From the NCBI RefSeq assembly GCF_900230225.1, contig NZ_OCNH01000005.1, positions 124,001 through 188,000 on the forward strand: DNA of 64,000 bases, given 5' to 3'. Source of the DNA: Spirosoma fluviale. Its GTDB lineage: Bacteria > Bacteroidota > Bacteroidia > Cytophagales > Spirosomataceae. Position 1 is the stretch's first letter. Each line of letters opens with the position of its first letter. Below are positions 1,426-60,798 of the stretch, in pieces. The notes beneath the pieces are model-generated. The model made no database searches, had not been told where the DNA came from, and was given only the letters and a program-made list of their open reading frames with translations. The translations under genes were made by a program, and so were the position numbers.

Positions 1426-3807
1426 ATGAAAAAACCGACGACCTATTCTTTTCTTACGATAGCGCTTTTGTGGCTATCGACGTTGCCCGCCTGGGCTCAA
1501 CTCACCATTTTGGGTACTGTCAGCGATGCCGATGGCGGTCCATTGCCCGGTGCTTCTATTGTCCTTACAGGTACGTATAAAGGTACCTTCACGGATGCCT
1601 CAGGCGCTTTTCGTCTGACTAATCTTAAATCTGCCCCCGCATCAATACAGGTATCTATGCTGGGCTATGAAACTAAAAACCAGACGATTGATCCTACTCA
1701 AAACGCTTCATTGTCGATAAAATTATTCAAAACGGCTGTTGCAGTCGATGAAGTCGTTGTCAGTGCTACGCGGGCGAATCAGAAATCGGCCATTGCCTAC
1801 ACGGATGTTACGCGCCGGGATCTTAATAAATTGAACCTGGGGCAGGATATTCCACAACTGCTCAATTTCACGCCATCCATCGTCACAACCTCCGATGCTG
1901 GGGCAGGTGTGGGCTACACAGGCATTCGTATTCGCGGGTCCGATGCCACGCGGGTAAACGTGACGTTGAACGGGATTCCATACAATGATGCCGAGTCGCA
2001 GGGTACCTTCTTTGTCAATATGCCGGACTTTGCGTCGTCTGTCAGTACGATTCAGATTCAGCGCGGGGTGGGTACATCGACCAACGGAGCCGGGGCGTTT
2101 GGCGCTTCGGTCAATATCCAAACCAACAAACTGGAAGAGAAACCGTATGCTGAGGTAAACCTGTCGGGTGGTTCGTTCGGGACACGAAAGGTGAATGTGC
2201 TGGCTGGAACGGGCCTTCTTAATAACCACTTCGTGCTGGATGCCCGGCTGTCCAAAATTCATTCGGATGGCTACATCGACCGCGCTTCCTCCGATCTGAA
2301 GTCTTTTTATCTATCGGGTGGCTACTACACTAAAAAGAGTTTCTTTCGGCTGAATGTGTTTTCGGGTCAGGAGAAAACGTATCAGGCCTGGAATGGAGTG
2401 CCGGAGCAATTTCTTAAAACGAACCGAACGTATAATTCCTTCACCTACGATAACCAGACGGATAATTATCAGCAGGACAATTACCAGTTGATCACTTCGC
2501 ATGAGTTAACCAAAAACTGGCGGGCCAATTTGTCGTTCTTTTACACGAAAGGGAAAGGGTATTATGAAGAATATAAAGCAGACGACCCGTTCAGCAAGTA
2601 CGGACTGCCCGATGTTGTCATTGGCGATTCGACTATCAAGAGTACGGATTTGATCCGGCGGCTGTGGCTCGACAACGATTTTTACGGCACCGTTTTCTCG
2701 TTCGACTACAACAGTTTCGGGAAGTTGACGGCCAATATTGGTGGTGGCTGGAATCAGTACAAAGGCATTCACTACGGTGAAATAATCTGGTCGCGGATGG
2801 CCGGAGCCAGCAATATCCGGGACCGCTATTATCAGGACGATGCGACCAAACGTGATTTCAACCTGTTTGCCAAAACGTTTTACCAATTCACGCCCCAACT
2901 GAACGGCTTTGTCGACGCTCAGATTCGGACCATCAATTATTCATTTTTGGGCTTTAACAGCCAGTTGCAGAACGTTCAGCAGAACGCTACTCTCACGTTC
3001 TTCAACCCGAAGGCCGGTTTTACCTACACGATCAACGACCGCAGCACAGTGTACGCGTCGGTGGGTGTGGGGCAGCGGGAACCAAACCGCAACGATTACA
3101 CCCAGTCGACACCCGAAAGTCGACCAAAAGCCGAGAAGTTGATTGATTACGAAGCCGGTTATAAAGTTCAGAATGAAAAGCTGGCGTTTACGGCTAATGC
3201 GTATTTTATGAACTACAGGGACCAGTTGGTTTTATCGGGTCAGTTGAACGACGTAGGCGCGTATAACCGGGTGAATATACCAAGTAGTTACCGGACCGGC
3301 ATTGAATTGGAAGCGGGGGCGCGTTTAGCTCAGCAATTGCGCTGGAACGTTAACGCGACCTTCAGCCAAAACAAAGTGAAGAATTTTACCGAGTACCTGG
3401 ATAATTTCGACAACGGCGAACAGGAAAGTCGGCAGTACCGTGAGACGGACATTTCGTTTTCGCCAAACGTCATTGCCGGTTCACAGTTGTTGTTTACTCC
3501 CGCAAAGGGATTAGAACTCGGTCTGCTCTCGAAGTACGTCGGCAAACAGTACATGGACAACACCTCGAACGAAAGTCGTAAGTTGAACTCGTATTTTACG
3601 AATGATATTCGAGTGATTTATAGTCTGAAGCCCAAATTCGCACAGGAAATCGCGTTCACGTTGCTGTTCAACAATGTACTCAACGAGCTTTACGAGTCGA
3701 ACGGCTTCACGGTTCCGTACATTGCCGAAGGCAAAGTAACCGCCGATAATAGCTATTATCCGCAAGCCGGTCGGAATTTCCTGGCTGGCGTTCGGGTAAG
3801 GTTCTAG
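1426..3807 (+). CDS. TonB-dependent receptor, probably for thiamine or a thiamine precursor
   Basis: 793 residues. A signal peptide (1-24, cleavage after AWA) is followed by a CarboxypepD_reg-like beta domain (about 26-105, with the GYETKNQ block), a plug domain (about 115-235, with IRIRGSDATRVNV) and a C-terminal 22-strand barrel ending in RVRF with the typical terminal Phe. Outer-membrane receptors of this type take up ligands using TonB energy. The substrate call rests on the TPP riboswitch directly upstream; in Bacteroidota such riboswitch-controlled receptors are thought to carry thiamine. No SusD partner is adjacent. ATG at 1426 is chosen because it begins the signal peptide; an earlier ATG at 1412 is out of frame. 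Confidence 0.9.
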   Translation: MKKPTTYSFLTIALLWLSTLPAWAQLTILGTVSDADGGPLPGASIVLTGTYKGTFTDASGAFRLTNLKSAPASIQVSMLGYETKNQTIDPTQNASLSIKLFKTAVAVDEVVVSATRANQKSAIAYTDVTRRDLNKLNLGQDIPQLLNFTPSIVTTSDAGAGVGYTGIRIRGSDATRVNVTLNGIPYNDAESQGTFFVNMPDFASSVSTIQIQRGVGTSTNGAGAFGASVNIQTNKLEEKPYAEVNLSGGSFGTRKVNVLAGTGLLNNHFVLDARLSKIHSDGYIDRASSDLKSFYLSGGYYTKKSFFRLNVFSGQEKTYQAWNGVPEQFLKTNRTYNSFTYDNQTDNYQQDNYQLITSHELTKNWRANLSFFYTKGKGYYEEYKADDPFSKYGLPDVVIGDSTIKSTDLIRRLWLDNDFYGTVFSFDYNSFGKLTANIGGGWNQYKGIHYGEIIWSRMAGASNIRDRYYQDDATKRDFNLFAKTFYQFTPQLNGFVDAQIRTINYSFLGFNSQLQNVQQNATLTFFNPKAGFTYTINDRSTVYASVGVGQREPNRNDYTQSTPESRPKAEKLIDYEAGYKVQNEKLAFTANAYFMNYRDQLVLSGQLNDVGAYNRVNIPSSYRTGIELEAGARLAQQLRWNVNATFSQNKVKNFTEYLDNFDNGEQESRQYRETDISFSPNVIAGSQLLFTPAKGLELGLLSKYVGKQYMDNTSNESRKLNSYFTNDIRVIYSLKPKFAQEIAFTLLFNNVLNELYESNGFTVPYIAEGKVTADNSYYPQAGRNFLAGVRVRF

Positions 3808-3811
3808 ACTG

Positions 3812-3912
3812 GGATTTTTATGATTTTTTTGACGGACTATGATCTTGAAATTTCTGCTTTCACAGAAGCTTAATCTAAAAATCATAGTCCGTCAAAAAAA
3901 TCATAAAAATCC
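3812..3912. repeat. Perfect 32-bp inverted repeat, also likely bidirectional terminator
   Basis: The left arm 3812-3843 (begins GGATTTTTATGATTTTTTTG) and right arm 3881-3912 are exact reverse complements over 32 bases, separated by 37 bases that contain a smaller TTCTG/CAGAA hairpin. It sits between two convergent genes, 4 bases past the receptor stop and 9 bases past the end of the PLP enzyme gene, and the arms contain T-runs in both directions, so it can end transcription both ways. A diverged copy of the arms lies at 1-93. Confidence 0.85.
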
Positions 3913-3921
3913 TGGTTCAGA

Positions 3922-9554: not shown

Positions 9555-9573
9555 TTAAGTTTTAACGTGATTA

Positions 9574-9635
9574 AGTAATAAATGGTAAGTGGCTGGCGCA
9601 AAAGATATAGCGCCAGCCACTTACTATTTCTTACT
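9574..9635. terminator. Bidirectional terminator between convergent genes
   Basis: 26-base arms (9574-9599 and 9610-9635) pair with two mismatches, GC-rich next to a 10-base loop and AT-rich outside. The right arm overlaps the last codons of the minus-strand TonB-C gene. Confidence 0.75.
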
Positions 9636-10065
9636 GCATCGTTATCTCAATCGGCAGTGTATAAAACACCGGTACAGCTTTACCCCCTACCTGACCGGGC
9701 TGCCAGCGCGGCATCTTCTCAATAGCAGCAATAATGTTTGTTATGTAAGCCTGTACCCCTCTCAACGTTTTTTTGTCGAGGGGTTTCATCGTAATGCGCA
9801 CATCCTGAACGTAACCGATGTCATTGATAATAAATTTGGCTGCTATCGGTCCGGTGTCGTAATGTTTCCGCACCATAGATCCCGGCACTTTTATTGTTTC
9901 GGCCAGGTAACGGCTTAACGCTGTATACCCGCCGGGAAATTCTGGTTGTACTTCGGCAACGGTATACACTTTTTGAGTCGCTGATTGGGCAGCACTCTGG
10001 TGACTTAGTAGGGAACACAAGGTGACAATTACCCCAACCAGTAGGGTTCGTATAAAGTATTTCAT
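9631..10065 (-). CDS. Secreted TonB C-terminal domain protein
   Basis: 144 residues from ATG at 10065, which starts a clear signal peptide (MKYFIRTLLVGVIVTL, cleavage near SAAQ). The mature part resembles a single TonB C-terminal domain: EVQPEFPGGYTALSRYLAE, then FIINDIGYVQDVRI and MPRWQPGQVGGKAVPVFYTLPIEI. Unlike real TonB it has no Pro-rich linker or membrane helix, so it may be a periplasmic partner or a stand-alone domain. A start at 10083 would overlap the upstream gene but lacks a good signal sequence. Confidence 0.8.
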   Translation of the reverse strand: MKYFIRTLLVGVIVTLCSLLSHQSAAQSATQKVYTVAEVQPEFPGGYTALSRYLAETIKVPGSMVRKHYDTGPIAAKFIINDIGYVQDVRITMKPLDKKTLRGVQAYITNIIAAIEKMPRWQPGQVGGKAVPVFYTLPIEITMQ

Positions 10066-14797: not shown

Positions 14798-14856
14798 AAC
14801 AAGAATGCGGCCTTAGAAGTAGACAGGCCATCTACTTCTAAGGCCGCATTCTTGTT
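14798..14856. terminator. Perfect 26-bp inverted-repeat terminator after psd
   Basis: Arms 14798-14823 and 14831-14856 are exact reverse complements with a 7-base loop, stem GC-rich in the middle, followed by TTTTG. Ten bases past the psd stop. The stem is longer than most rho-independent terminators. Confidence 0.85.
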
Positions 14857-19151: not shown

Positions 19152-22100
19152 TTAGTTGTGATTTTTTTCTGAAATCGTCCTGAGCTGTACCCACGATGAT
19201 TGAGATAGGTAGCTGTTGCCGTAGTTAAATTCCTGTTTTCGCTGGGTAACACCAGTTGCCGGGTGTAGGCTGGCAGGGTTTAGGCGATGATAGACCGCTT
19301 CGGGTGCTGTTGCCGTAAATACCCGCAGCGGGCCATTGTTCTGTGTTGCTATGTACCACAACTGTCCATTCGCCACCAGGAGACTGGCCAGTGCTTTGGC
19401 ATCACCATCAACGACAAAGCCGGATTTGGCTAGTGAAAGTGGTCTGAAATTGCCCCGTCCATCGCCCAGCAAGCCTAACCCAAGCCCCGCATCCTGCCAG
19501 CCCGAAAGGACTTCGGTTGCGTAATCGTTACCTACCAAGAGAATATCCAGATTGCCGTCGTGGTTAAGGTCTGTAACCGAACTGCCGAACATGGGTGAAA
19601 ATTGAGCTTCAAGGGGTAAATCATGTACCAAAAAAGTGCCCGCCCGATTTTCAATGTAAGCAGATGCCAGAAAAGTAGCGCGCTTAACCTGTGCAAGCGT
19701 TTTTTTCTCGGTTGATAACAGGCTGGGTAAGGTCGTTTTTCCGTAAGCGGCATAGGTCGTCATCTTCTTTTTGAAAGAAGGGATTTGATCCGTCAGCACA
19801 TCGCGCGGGTGAACCGGATATTCGACGCCCCCGTTGAAAAAACTCAGGATAGGGTCCAGCGTGCCGTTTTTGTCGTAATCCGCTGCGTAGACGGATATAG
19901 GTTGCTCAACTGACGCCCGTAATCGGCTATTCAGACCATTATTTCCCGCTATATAGTCCATGTCGCCGTCGTTGTCGAAATCCCCCGCTGAAAGGCTGTT
20001 CCAGAAACCAACGGCTTTAGCCAGTTCAGGCGTGTTAACGGGCGAAAACGCGCGGCCCTGTTGATTCCTAAAGATAATAATGGGCATAAACTCACCCGCC
20101 AGCATGAGATCGGGCCAGTTGTCGTTGTCAACGTCGGTCCAAAGCGCCGAACAGATCAAGCCCGCCCGGCTCAGGCCTGGAGCCAATTGATTCGTAACGT
20201 TGGTGAAGCGGACTGAGCCCGGTTTGCTGTCATTGCGTAACAAGTAGCTTCGGGCGGGCTCCGGATAGCGCTGCGGTACGATACGGCCGCCGATGAACAG
20301 GTCCAGGTCGCCGTCGTGGTCAAAGTCGGTGGCAATGACGCACGAGCCGCTGGACATGGTGTTGGGCAGCGCAGTTGACGACGCTCGAAAATTGCCTTTT
20401 CCGTCATTCAGGTATAGACTGTCCTGACAGACTTTTTCATCCCGACCAAACTCAGTGCTGCCATGAACGGTATAGAGGTCGAGGTCTCCGTCGTTATCGG
20501 CGTCAAAGAGGAGTACGCCGGTTTCTTCCGGCTTTTTTGCCAGCCGGTCTTTCCGCCGAAAGGAGACGGGTCCTCCGGTTTGGCTTTTCTGTTGCAGAAA
20601 GAACGTACCTCCTTTGTAGGCGCTGCCTGCGATGTAAACATCATCTAGGCCGTTGCCATCCACATCGCCAACCGCGAGCCCCGGCCCAATCTGCGAATGT
20701 TTATGGGCGAGAAGTGTTTGCTGGGCTTTATAATCGACAAAGTCGTCTTCCTGATGCTGATAGTCCAGACCCGCCAGTTTGGTCGAGACTTCAGTGAGTA
20801 AAGGCTTCGCCAGGAGCTGTAACTGCATAAACGAAGGTGACTGAGGAGTGGCTTTTCGCTCATCCAGGGTCAGGACTTGGTTCGTTTTTATAGTCCGAAT
20901 GAGCTGACCGTTGCCCGTTGGCCAGACGATCTTCAACGAGTCGATGCGTTTGGCAGAACCCAGCCCCACATGAATACCCGACGCCATCGTGGATAGGTAG
21001 CCACGTTGCCGGGTATATTCGGTGTAGTGCAACTGCCCGTTCGCCCAGACGGCAATTTTAGCACCAAGGCCCTCCAGATTACCGGGTTTCCCACGCAACT
21101 GTATCGTTAGAAAATGCCCGTCCGACGAATCTTTGACACGCTCAACGATCTGATTTCGATAAATGAAGGCCGGGTCGTTGATGTTATTCATGACCAGATC
21201 CAGATCGCCGTCGTTGTCGAAGTCGGCGTAGGCGGTGCCGTTCGTGAAGGAGGATTCGGTCAGGCCCCAGTCAGCAGCGACATTGGTAAAGTGGAGGTCG
21301 CCGGTATTGTGAAAAAGGAAATTTGGTTTGTAAACGGGCTCCAGATCAACAATCCGTTTCAGGAGCTGGGCACGCCTGTCGGCATCGGTGCCGAAGTTGC
21401 CATCATCCCGGTTATAGCTGGTAAAGTCCAGATCAGTAATGTCTTTGCGGTAGCCGTTTGTAATCAGCAAGTCCGAAAAGCCATCGTTGTCCAGATCCGA
21501 AAACAGGGCGCTCCAGCTCCAGTCGGTTGCCGCCGTCCCGGCCAGGTAGCCAATGTCGGAGAAGTGGGGGAGGGCAGAGGGTAGGGGGTTCGGGGCAGGG
21601 GGCATAGGGGTTTGGGCATAGGGGGTAGGGTTGGGGCTTTCTTTGTTACCCTTTACCCCTTGTCCCACGCCTTCTGCCCTCTGCCCTCTGCCCTCTGCCC
21701 CAAACCCACTGTTCAGTTGAAGGACATTTCGAATGTATTGCGGCTGGTAACCGAGCCGACGAGCCATCTGAAAACGGTCGTAGGGAATGGTGGAGAACAT
21801 GGTTTTCTGCCGAAGGTTATCATCGGGCAGCATGTCCACCACGGCGAAGTCGATCAGTCCATCGTTATTAATGTCGGCCATGTCCATGCCCATGCTGTTG
21901 TGGCTCTGGTGTTTCAGGGTTTCGGCAATGCGATTACTAAACGTTCCATCCCGATTATTGACGAGCCAGACATCGTTCGACTGAAAATCATTGGCCACAT
22001 AAATATCCGGCCACCCATCCTGATTTACATCGTTCACCATCACGCCCAGTCCCCAACCTTCATGAACAAGCCCCGCCTGAGCGGAAACATCTTTGTATTG

Positions 22101-22892
22101 AGGAGTGAGTTGTTTAGGAGTTAGTAGCGAGGAGCGAGGAGTGAGGAGCCTGCCGGGAGCAGTGGCTGAACGCGATAGCGTTTTCTCCGCCGGATGGCTC
22201 CTCACTTCTCGATCCTCGCTACTAACTCCTAAATTCTCATACAGCTTATCCACACTCCGGGCGGAGCCGTCGTTTCTGGGGCCGATGACGTTGTTTCGAT
22301 TGAAGTTTTCGAGGGCGTTGGTTAACAGGAACAGGTCAAGGTCACCGTCGCGGTCGTAGTCGAGAAAGGTGGCTTGCGTGGAGTAGCTCGAATCGGCTAA
22401 TCCGGCGGCTTTAGCCGATTCGACAAAATGAGGAATGCCGTTGGCGTCGTTGCCCTGATTAAGGAAAAGCAGGTTAGGGACGGCCTTGTTGCGGTCGGGG
22501 TGAATAGTCGATACGTAAATGTCCTGTCGCCCGTCCTGGTTAATATCGGCCACAGCTACGCCCGTACACCAGTAGGTCGTGCCAACGCCCGCTGAGTCGG
22601 TTATATCCTCGAAGTTGAAATCACCTTTATTGAGGTACATCCGGCTGGAAACCTGATTCCCGGCAAAGAACACATCGGGTTGGCCATCGCCGTTGAAATC
22701 GCCAACGCCAACGCCACCCCCATTGTAGAGATACTCAAATTCCAGCACATTCAGGGAGTCACTTTCTGTAATGGTATTGGCAAAGTCAATACCCGTTCGA
22801 CTGGCTGTCAGCCGCTCAAATCGTGACGATGAATGCGTACAGCCGACCAATGTAAGTGCCGAAAACGCGGCCAGTCTGAGTAAGTGATGCAT
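19152..22892 (-). CDS. CRTAC1/ASPIC-type FG-GAP repeat lipoprotein with two repeat insertions
   Basis: 1246 residues from ATG at 22892, which begins a lipoprotein signal (MHHLLRLAAFSALTLVGC, lipobox Cys at 18). At least 14 calcium-binding FG-GAP/VCBS motifs of the form DxDxDGxxD are present, for example DFNGDGQPD, DYDRDGDLD, DFDNDGDLD, DFDHDGDLD and DLNHDGNLD, plus one UnbV/ASPIC domain (SLKIVWPTGNGQ). The protein is probably an outer-membrane-anchored beta-propeller. It follows SusD by 86 bases; such proteins often accompany SusCD pairs in Cytophagales. Two stretches of about 45 residues are low-complexity insertions encoded by repeats at 21564-21704 and 22113-22233. Confidence 0.9.
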   Translation of the reverse strand: MHHLLRLAAFSALTLVGCTHSSSRFERLTASRTGIDFANTITESDSLNVLEFEYLYNGGGVGVGDFNGDGQPDVFFAGNQVSSRMYLNKGDFNFEDITDSAGVGTTYWCTGVAVADINQDGRQDIYVSTIHPDRNKAVPNLLFLNQGNDANGIPHFVESAKAAGLADSSYSTQATFLDYDRDGDLDLFLLTNALENFNRNNVIGPRNDGSARSVDKLYENLGVSSEDREVRSHPAEKTLSRSATAPGRLLTPRSSLLTPKQLTPQYKDVSAQAGLVHEGWGLGVMVNDVNQDGWPDIYVANDFQSNDVWLVNNRDGTFSNRIAETLKHQSHNSMGMDMADINNDGLIDFAVVDMLPDDNLRQKTMFSTIPYDRFQMARRLGYQPQYIRNVLQLNSGFGAEGRGQRAEGVGQGVKGNKESPNPTPYAQTPMPPAPNPLPSALPHFSDIGYLAGTAATDWSWSALFSDLDNDGFSDLLITNGYRKDITDLDFTSYNRDDGNFGTDADRRAQLLKRIVDLEPVYKPNFLFHNTGDLHFTNVAADWGLTESSFTNGTAYADFDNDGDLDLVMNNINDPAFIYRNQIVERVKDSSDGHFLTIQLRGKPGNLEGLGAKIAVWANGQLHYTEYTRQRGYLSTMASGIHVGLGSAKRIDSLKIVWPTGNGQLIRTIKTNQVLTLDERKATPQSPSFMQLQLLAKPLLTEVSTKLAGLDYQHQEDDFVDYKAQQTLLAHKHSQIGPGLAVGDVDGNGLDDVYIAGSAYKGGTFFLQQKSQTGGPVSFRRKDRLAKKPEETGVLLFDADNDGDLDLYTVHGSTEFGRDEKVCQDSLYLNDGKGNFRASSTALPNTMSSGSCVIATDFDHDGDLDLFIGGRIVPQRYPEPARSYLLRNDSKPGSVRFTNVTNQLAPGLSRAGLICSALWTDVDNDNWPDLMLAGEFMPIIIFRNQQGRAFSPVNTPELAKAVGFWNSLSAGDFDNDGDMDYIAGNNGLNSRLRASVEQPISVYAADYDKNGTLDPILSFFNGGVEYPVHPRDVLTDQIPSFKKKMTTYAAYGKTTLPSLLSTEKKTLAQVKRATFLASAYIENRAGTFLVHDLPLEAQFSPMFGSSVTDLNHDGNLDILLVGNDYATEVLSGWQDAGLGLGLLGDGRGNFRPLSLAKSGFVVDGDAKALASLLVANGQLWYIATQNNGPLRVFTATAPEAVYHRLNPASLHPATGVTQRKQEFNYGNSYLSQSSWVQLRTISEKNHN
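21564..21704. repeat. G-rich/heptamer repeat element inside the FG-GAP gene
   Basis: The plus strand is G-rich at 21564-21636 (blocks such as GGGGGAGGGCAGAGGG) and C-rich at 21647-21700, forming an imperfect inverted repeat. Four tandem heptamers TCTGCCC occupy 21673-21700. It is in frame and encodes a Gly/Arg/Glu- then Pro-rich segment between NSGFG and PHFSDIG, where FG-GAP relatives normally have only a short loop. Confidence 0.8.
22113..22233. repeat. Palindromic element inserted in frame in the FG-GAP gene
   Basis: Arms 22113-22150 and 22196-22233 (38 bases each, beginning TTTAGGAGTTAGTAGCGAGG) pair with two mismatches around a 45-base loop. The element keeps the frame open and codes for a Ser/Leu/Arg/Pro-rich stretch that splits the normally contiguous KLYEN...YKDVSAQAG segment of the FG-GAP family. 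Confidence 0.85.
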
Positions 22893-22978
22893 ACTTGAAA
22901 TATAGACAAAATCCCCGATTGACAACAAGGCCAGCCGGGGATTCACTATTTACATTAGGTTGGTAATTCGTAAGGATA

Positions 22979-33443: not shown

Positions 33444-33519
33444 TTTGTGGTCAGACAAACCTCTCTCACTTTTCGGATGTTCATGGTCTTACCAAGTTAC
33501 CTTTATGTTTCAATTATGG

Positions 33520-33598
33520 ATGTATGACGTACCCACGGGTTTCAACCCGTGTTCTTGAAAAATAAACACGGGTTGAAACCCGTGGGTACGTTATACAT
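33520..33598. repeat. Nested palindromic repeat upstream of smpB
   Basis: Arms 33520-33553 and 33565-33598 pair over 34 bases with one mismatch around an 11-base loop. Each arm contains its own palindrome ACGGGTTTCAACCCGT, so each can also fold on itself. It ends 20 bases before the smpB start. No T-run follows, so it is unlike a plain terminator. Confidence 0.85.
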
Positions 33599-33618
33599 CA
33601 CATATCCTACATCAGTAC

Positions 33619-34111: not shown

Positions 34112-34255
34112 TAGAGTAATAGAGTACCATTCCTTTCACTGGTGTTGTGTGTTGCTCCTTTTGTCTATTTATTACTTCGTTAATTTTTATCATAGCTATT
34201 GTCGTTATGTGGATAACTCTGTAACTTGCTACCGTACAGAGGCTCTAAACGCGAT

Positions 34256-34771
34256 ATGGGTAGGAAAGTATTAGTCTTAAATCAAGATTACAGTGCATTC
34301 AGCATCTGCTCCGTTCCCAAAGCATTCTTGCTGGTTTACTTAGATAAAGCAGAACTTGTTGCAGAATCTGAGCAGTTCATGCTTCGAACCGTTTCGGCAG
34401 AATACCCCATGCCATCGGTCATTCGTCTTCACCGGTACGTCAGTCTGCCTTACAAGGGCGTTATGCTTACCCGGCAGAATATCTTCAAGCGCGATGGGCA
34501 TCATTGCCAGTATTGCGGCACCACCGAAGACTTGACGCTGGACCACGTACTGCCAAAATCGAGAGGAGGTAAGACCAGTTGGGACAACCTGGCCACTGCC
34601 TGCAAGCGGTGCAACTCCCGAAAAGGCGATTATACGCCCGAGGAGGCAAATCTTAAATTACGGCAGAAGCCATTTAAACCAACCTTCCTGGTTTTCCTAC
34701 GTGAATTTTCAGGCTCCCTTGAGCAAAGCTGGATGCCGTTCTTGGCGAAAAAGGAAAAAGCATTCAAGTAA
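34256..34771 (+). CDS. HNH endonuclease domain protein
   Basis: 171 residues from ATG at 34256 (MGRKVLVLNQDYSAFS). The zinc-bound HNH core is CQYCGTTEDLTLDHVLPKSRGG followed by WDNLATACKRCNSRKG, with both CxxC pairs and the LDHVLP and N residues. Lone HNH proteins with this N-terminal VLNQDY block are widespread single-copy genes in Bacteroidota and elsewhere, so this is not taken as a homing nuclease. The DNA target is unknown. Confidence 0.9.
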   Translation: MGRKVLVLNQDYSAFSICSVPKAFLLVYLDKAELVAESEQFMLRTVSAEYPMPSVIRLHRYVSLPYKGVMLTRQNIFKRDGHHCQYCGTTEDLTLDHVLPKSRGGKTSWDNLATACKRCNSRKGDYTPEEANLKLRQKPFKPTFLVFLREFSGSLEQSWMPFLAKKEKAFK

Positions 34772-34851
34772 AAGGAGTAAAGGGCCGAGGGGGAGAAAGG
34801 GATCATGCCATGAGCAAACTCCTTTCTCCCCCTTGGCCTTTTCCTCCTTTT
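34770..34851 (+). terminator. Long hairpin terminator after the HNH gene
   Basis: Arms 34770-34800 and 34821-34851 (31 bases each) pair with three non-Watson-Crick positions, two of which are G-U in RNA. The loop is 20 bases. The purine-rich left arm overlaps the end of the HNH coding region. The outer right arm is T-rich. Confidence 0.7.
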
Positions 34852-34907
34852 ATCCTCTCTCTCAAAGACTTTTGCCAGTTTCGAAACTTTTTTTGGAAAG
34901 CATTTGC

Positions 34908-60684: not shown

Positions 60685-60798
60685 GTAGAGACGCGATACC
60701 TCGCGTCTCCTGTGCGTCAGCCATTAATTTCTTAGTGAAACGTCTAATAATGAGACTAGTGGCTGACGCACAGAAGACGCGAGGTATCGCGTCTCTAC
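60685..60798. repeat. Nested palindromic repeat between convergent genes
   Basis: Arms 60685-60723 and 60760-60798 (39 bases each) pair with one mismatch around a 36-base loop. Each arm begins with its own palindrome GAGACGCGATACCTCGCGTC plus TC (60688-60709). It lies 4 bases past the acetyltransferase stop and 12 bases past the end of fcl. No clear T-run. Confidence 0.88.

Follow-up and report, generated by a model that had tools for sequence, protein, structure and literature searches.

In-frame palindrome of tandem heptamers in a Spirosoma FG-GAP gene belongs to a genome-wide class of hairpins that often keep their places while their sequences change

Palindromic repeats between or inside bacterial genes have been described in several forms, summarised here from the accessible parts of the papers cited. 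Rickettsia palindromic elements (RPE) measure about 105-146 bp, form a long stem-loop, and occur both between genes and in frame inside conserved genes; an RPE-bearing Rickettsia guanylate kinase is translated and active, with a changed substrate affinity (PMC2229807). The GTAG and CGTC REPs lie mostly between tandem or convergent genes and near start or stop codons, and some are intragenic, for example in uvrA. They have stems of 5-13 bp and a GTAG or CGTC tag, and the GTAG type is associated with RAYT (PMC3733652). The P6b stem of the Nostoc tRNA-Leu intron consists of either of two 7-nt motifs, and one motif class has repeatedly given way to the other at the same place while the fold remained similar (PMC4476775). 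Heptamer arrays are also found in Xanthomonas, where GGGAATC arrays near ORF ends include 70 and 75 close convergent pairs with possible stem-loops (PMC4692102), and in Beggiatoaceae, Cyanobacteria and five Bacteroidetes, where TAACTGA direct repeats form intergenic arrays near start or stop codons (PMC4679880). Among the open-licence papers searched we found no description of hairpins of the kind reported below from Spirosoma or Cytophagales.

The locus studied here lies in the window, a stretch of 64,000 nucleotides from the genome of Spirosoma fluviale (G000), and has the following features.

22113..22233, no strand assigned: palindrome of AGGAGYK heptamers, with arms 22113-22150 and 22196-22233 and core 22151-22195
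19152..22946, minus strand: host gene, encoding an FG-GAP / UnbV_ASPIC protein (ORF and domain matches)
22098..22232, minus strand: in-frame stretch of 135 nt, variable among orthologues, encoding residues 239-283 between KLYEN and YKDVS
21570..21695, no strand assigned: second palindrome in the same gene, of GGGCAGA-like heptamers, with 40-nt arms that are 70-75% complementary
21561..21710, minus strand: variable linker of 150 nt that holds the second palindrome, encoding residues 413-462 between LQLN and SDIGY
3803-3921, 9569-9640, 14798-14856, 33519-33599 and 60685-60798: gene junctions, several of them convergent, that carry strong inverted repeats differing in sequence from the first palindrome

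The two arms of the first palindrome pair with two mismatches in 38 positions, and a search for longer inverted repeats gives 44-nt arms that are 91% complementary and spaced by 33 nt. The coding-strand RNA of positions 22100-22240 folds at -83.2 kcal/mol, compared with -38.2 (s.d. 3.9) for 200 dinucleotide shuffles, none of which was as stable (z -11.5). This bears out the 38-base arms proposed in an earlier sequence-only reading of the window and, together with the many copies in the genome, rules out a chance palindrome. The host ORF, of 1264 residues from a GTG or 1246 from an ATG at residue 19, runs through the palindrome without a stop, as that reading had stated for the 1246-residue form. 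We take the protein to be a lipoprotein, given its lipobox-like N-terminus. The same reading described an in-frame insert of 121 bp, and about 45 residues do separate KLYEN from YKDVS; the in-frame unit itself had to be redrawn, because 121 is not a multiple of three and the stretch that differs is 135 nt long. The five shortest of 15 FG-GAP orthologues have 8-10 residues in this gap, so the net gain here is about 36 residues. Four of the 15 species have only 24-27 nt at the site. The segment is therefore not common to all orthologues, a possibility that the sequence-only reading had raised against itself, and is an insert relative to the distant ones. An AlphaFold2 model of residues 55-540 places it in a low-confidence loop, as had been anticipated: pLDDT is under 50 at model positions 195-221 (protein 249-275, inside the stretch 239-283) and at 367-399 (protein 421-453, inside the linker 413-462). 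These are two of five such runs, the rest lying at the ends and at 445-465.

The second palindrome was absent from the earlier reading of this gene. It too is in frame, its linker (21561-21710) folds at z -5.3, and related but weaker matches to it occur at other places in the genome. Elsewhere in the window, a purine-first inverted repeat (AAAGGAGTAAAGGG...) at 34769-34852, at the end of the ORF 34226-34771, may be another hairpin of repeat units.

The arms of the first palindrome consist of tandem 7-nt units, AGGAGYK, and have many dispersed copies in the same genome, as the sequence-only reading would require of a repeated element. A search with the palindrome returned at least 108 pieces (best 40 of 70 first-look candidates scored), a second copy used as query added further places (best 40 of 77 scored), and the arm, unit-pattern and second-copy searches combined give at least about 60 related hairpins. 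With up to one mismatch, the unit pattern has at least 154 and at least 151 matches, whereas its reversal gives at least 47 and at least 45. Allowing no mismatch, a pattern of four units has hits in 12 of the 99 genomes searched, including S. fluviale (34 and 36 matches), G035 (22 and 11), G027 (9 and 8) and G025 (6 and 8). Self-identity at a lag of 7 nt is 0.61, versus 0.22-0.39 at other lags.

We surveyed the context of 56 loci, namely 55 fetched from the genome and the window itself. Most copies lie between two genes and often end about 10 nt or less from a stop or start codon, distances that are approximate since in several loci a called ORF overlaps the hairpin. The 43 intergenic copies comprise 28 between tandem, 13 between convergent and two between divergent genes, which does not differ significantly from the 52 junctions of the window (8 and 8 of the 52 were entered in this test, against 7 and 7 counted). 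Eight of the 56 loci have a copy in frame inside a gene, although two of these (L023 and L029) hold mainly one arm; a 101-aa ORF (L039) and a C-terminal tail (L094) were left out of the count. The hosts are UvrA, MiaB, an FAD-linked oxidase, an alpha/beta hydrolase, a DUF4011/AAA protein and three FG-GAP proteins, including that of the window, and several of the encoded peptides resemble one another (RSEELG..., ...SSLLAPN). Any of the six frames is open in just 13 of the 43 intergenic copies, so that filtering seems to have shaped the set of coding copies. A module, GAGCGGCCGGCGTTCC (L037, L051, L056, L193), is confined to one arm in some copies but is present in both arms at the L042 site of G035. 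An Rfam scan of eight loci matched just a tRNA, and the elements themselves matched no family. The outer flanks of several copies are T-rich before and A-rich after the hairpin, which gives a longer stem without a U-run and does not fit a simple terminator.

As far as the accessible account of RPE extends, the Spirosoma palindromes resemble them in size and build (121 nt, within their span of about 105-146 bp, and terminal inverted repeats, here arms of 38-44 nt) and in occurring in frame in some genes (8/56 loci) and mostly between genes otherwise. The likeness is one of form; the Spirosoma arms are tandem heptamers, and unit family and core are swapped between species at the same place. The precedent from Rickettsia cited in the sequence-only reading is thus apt for a tolerated in-frame loop but too narrow, since in-frame GTAG/CGTC REPs are on record from several species, uvrA being one of the host genes (PMC3733652).

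At 23 intergenic sites, picked for the presence of a hairpin in S. fluviale, we compared segments from this species (23) with those of two close species, G035 (22) and G026 (20). The sites come from 27 listed, of which 25 were searched; the comparison took in all of these 25 but L045 and L092. Each of the 65 segments contains a stem of at least 14 bp (median of the main stem, 41 pairs). Over the close species and the distant ones described below, the purine-richer arm comes first in 65/65, 30/32 and 4/4 of the segments with a stem. Within these shared hairpins the arms change in concert. An arm matches the other arm of its own hairpin better than the arms of the other species in 24 of 26 pairs, with two ties and none against (14 sites, 40 of the 65 segments usable, the pairs not being independent). 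Among copies within S. fluviale, own-arm identity is 0.82 versus 0.79 for random pairs (from the 36 of 48 copies that could be used; 27 of 2000 permutations reached this value). This is barely above random, and the arms of most copies are therefore not freshly homogenised. A unit-by-unit test of arm symmetry gave a weak signal (0.36 vs 0.28), and the arm-identity test was used instead.

Cores are often replaced between species. They differ at many sites, and include GGGCTGACGC, GTTGCTGACGC, GCCATCCGGCGG, a GTACC type and a longer type of 105-149 nt. In some hairpins of G035 and G026 (L187, L190, L184 and L205) a longer core with GGCTGGCGCGGG or similar ends lies in the middle. Four of 27 core pairs match better inverted by more than 0.15 (at L044, 0.93 vs 0.63), one is clearly better in direct orientation, and 22 have no clear orientation; seven pairs fall below 60% in either orientation and nine reach 80% or more. 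Orthologous cores average 0.70, versus 0.57 for unrelated sites, which indicates that the places still show their common descent. Even so, of 15 S. fluviale cores with an orthologue, ten find a better match at another site of S. fluviale than at the orthologous site of G035 or G026, three match both equally and two match their own genome less well. The own-genome value in this comparison is the best of many sites and is biased in its favour.

These comparisons do not support two proposals of the sequence-only reading as they were stated. A mobile unit was proposed, yet G035 and G026 share the sites, and it is within the hairpin that the sequence changes fastest; we saw no insertion event or target duplication at the sites compared (the FG-GAP gene, and 22 intergenic sites in G035 and 20 in G026). 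Nor is a single type of 121-bp element supported: copies share heptamer arms, but their cores are mosaics that have been exchanged, and at the same places other species have other units.

The pattern extends to four more distant species, for which we obtained 40 segments at 12 of 13 sites searched (L021 left out): 12 from G024, 11 each from G011 and G014, and six from G031. A stem of 14 bp or more is present in 36 of the 40, and 28 of these also fold at z<-3, compared with 9 of 32 window junctions of 15-260 nt used as a control (Fisher p 0.0008). The AGGAG pattern was found in just 4 of the 40 segments. Units read from the other sequences include AATGAAG, GGGAGGA, GGTTTTC and the 8-nt GAAAGAGC, and identity in the other species is 0.44 and 0.43 at lags of 7 and 8 nt versus 0.24-0.40 elsewhere. 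Three of the 12 sites in G024 (L040, L025 and L049) are short and have no hairpin and, by eye, no clear target duplication; one further segment among the 40 also has no stem.

A stem kept at 36 of 40 distant junctions, mostly in other letters, could mean that gene ends are selected to carry an RNA hairpin (in 3'-end protection, attenuation or termination), with letters free to drift or swap and coding copies arising as by-products. The proximity of many copies to stop or start codons (about 10 nt or less), and their arrangement of 28 tandem, 13 convergent and two divergent, fit such a role. However, this orientation is not significantly unlike that of the window's junctions, 3 of the 12 sites in G024 do without a hairpin, and many copies separate genes in tandem, a position in which strong termination should be harmful. 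Selection of this kind also gives no account of the in-frame hairpins in UvrA, MiaB and FG-GAP proteins, or of the common repeat-unit design. We regard it as possible but rather unlikely as the explanation of the class.

The coding sites were followed through orthologues of UvrA (30 loci), MiaB (30 loci, one unusable) and the FG-GAP protein (15 species). In UvrA and MiaB the same loop is filled by repeats or hairpins whose units, named by eye, differ by species: AGGAG in S. fluviale, G035 and G026, GGGCAGA-like in G021, G005 and G003, TAATGAA-like in G014 and AGAGTGA in G016. In G017 the MiaB loop has a hairpin with the C-rich arm first, and the sister species G025 and G028 have different units in this loop (z -9.3 and -2.5). 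Labels for unit families, assigned to 25 taxa partly by eye and including 'none', change 12 times for MiaB and 13 times for UvrA and are descriptive only. In the FG-GAP gene G035 has a 120-nt hairpin with a core similar to that of S. fluviale and G026 a 69-nt remnant of a hairpin, and G031 and G018 have other G-rich repeats, including at the linker of the second palindrome.

Loops fold at z<-3 in 11 of 29 MiaB and 6 of 30 UvrA orthologues, at 4 of 11 first FG-GAP sites (four more were too short to fold) and at 1 of 14 second FG-GAP sites, that of S. fluviale itself. Control windows reach this value in 0/116 (MiaB), 3/120 (UvrA) and 0/60 (FG-GAP) cases. The UvrA controls are a second set, placed further away since the first windows might overlap the loop (4/51 at z<-3); first-round controls were 0/38 for MiaB and 0/21 and 1/28 for the FG-GAP sites. 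As a minority of loops fold this strongly, our claim is one of recurrence of hairpins, not of universality. The MiaB insert maps between residues 223 and 225 of structure 7mjv and the UvrA insert between residues 558 and 564 of structure 3pih, and both places are probably surface turns. The MiaB loop is variable in other genera of the family too (20 loci, with one hairpin at z -3.2), and in a sister genus (L308) it contains a 15-nt unit repeated in tandem, which reads IPAGG. A second UvrA loop carries in-frame AGAGTGA-type repeats in S. fluviale (L028) and in G016 (L132, 1108-1186).

The repeated occupation of these loops in UvrA, MiaB and FG-GAP proteins might suggest that selection favours the peptide itself, as a useful linker or as a feature of the protein surface. 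This is very unlikely, given that the residues are not conserved, that many species have short loops, that unrelated repeats fill the same loop and that model confidence there is low. Still less credible is removal of the insert from the product by RNA splicing or ribosome bypassing, which a very stable hairpin within conserved genes could bring to mind. The compared loops are open and in frame, as a removed insert need not be, although this is partly by construction, the longest frame having been taken. Stops occur in some orthologue matches (FG-GAP in G018 and G011, UvrA in G016, MiaB in G012, and six MiaB pieces from other genera). In the UvrA gene of G016 (L132) neither loop is interrupted and the frame breaks at a place away from them, by a broken gene or a sequencing error.

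We also considered non-autonomous palindromes of MITE or REP type, moved in trans by RAYT or another IS into permissive loops and junctions. Several observations would suit such a process: copies are dispersed in the genome, which has nine Y1_Tnp matches, eight of them over the cut-off; the L100 core in G035 and G026 is REP-like by eye; G024 has three short, hairpin-free sites; and the unit differs between sister species at the MiaB loop (G025 and G028). On the other side, none of the nine Y1_Tnp loci has a heptamer array within 1.5 kb, and the palindromes present there differ; we therefore discarded RAYT as the mover. Two of these loci, L173 and L174, each carry their own palindrome in two copies (ACCGACCGTCCCGGTCGG; GTACCCGACAGCATCTTGCTGTCGG). 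Of the 86 ends of the 43 intergenic copies, 5 have GTAG nearby and none has CGTC, and the sharing of sites among species exceeds what the junctions of the window would give. Trans-mobilised palindromes seem improbable here. Relative to the accessible description of REPs, the Spirosoma palindromes are alike in lying between tandem or convergent genes, close to start or stop codons, and within some genes including uvrA; they differ in their median of 41 pairs against stems of 5-13 bp, in the near absence of the tags and in that we found no RAYT link.

Replacement of the unit at a fixed site is closer to the Nostoc P6b stem, as far as its accessible description goes, in that a stem of tandem 7-nt units changes class in place. 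That case concerns one group I intron site and a one-way change, whereas here many junctions and protein loops and more unit families are involved. From the parts of the respective papers that were accessible, the Xanthomonas repeats have another unit and are treated with a focus on G-quadruplexes, whereas the present data add the comparison of orthologous sites and in-frame loops, and the TAACTGA arrays are direct repeats (with one indirect set mentioned) rather than palindromes. On this basis the nearest parallels appear to be Nostoc P6b for unit replacement, and RPE and intragenic REPs for in-frame insertion.

Our preferred reading, to which we give slightly better than an even chance, is that the palindrome of the FG-GAP gene belongs to a class of hairpins of tandem 7-nt units spread through the genome, translated as a tolerated loop and rewritten in place by errors that palindromes provoke. 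The coding copy would simply be translated, giving a disordered loop, about 36-45 residues long, that joins two strands of the FG-GAP domain, and be tolerated rather than beneficial, which seems the simplest reading of the coding copies. Copies that break the frame would be lost, so that the coding copies are the subset with open frames. For the rewriting, template switching between repeat arms is known to homogenise the arms and invert the spacer, according to the accessible part of the source (PMC8604942). In Spirosoma it may have produced matched arms and flipped cores, alongside slippage of 7-nt units in the arms and exchange of cores with hairpin copies elsewhere in the genome. We favour template switching because it predicts both matching arms and flipped spacers, each of which is seen at part of the sites. 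It does not account well for a wholly different unit family at the same junction, or for the first spread of the hairpins. Selection for the hairpin could equally explain the conserved position, and at gene ends such selection could work alongside these mutational processes.

In-frame palindromes were already known as tolerated insertions. Here the same site can be compared over many species, and hairpins are seen whose place and shape are kept while the letters have changed, in uvrA, in miaB and at gene junctions. The Spirosoma hairpins therefore offer a natural test bed for palindrome mutation, for the gain of disordered loops and for the recurrence of 7-nt units. A broader reading, which we put forward tentatively and hold to be doubtful at present, is that in Spirosoma and its relatives junctions and a few protein loops are fixed addresses at which the form of a 7- or 8-nt-unit hairpin is inherited while its letters are rewritten repeatedly: unit family, arms and core are replaced, and place, palindromy, purine-first polarity and, within genes, reading frame are kept. 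If true, it would need a process, possibly enzyme-driven, that writes new hairpins at existing ones, and such a process would go beyond ordinary insertion and point mutation.
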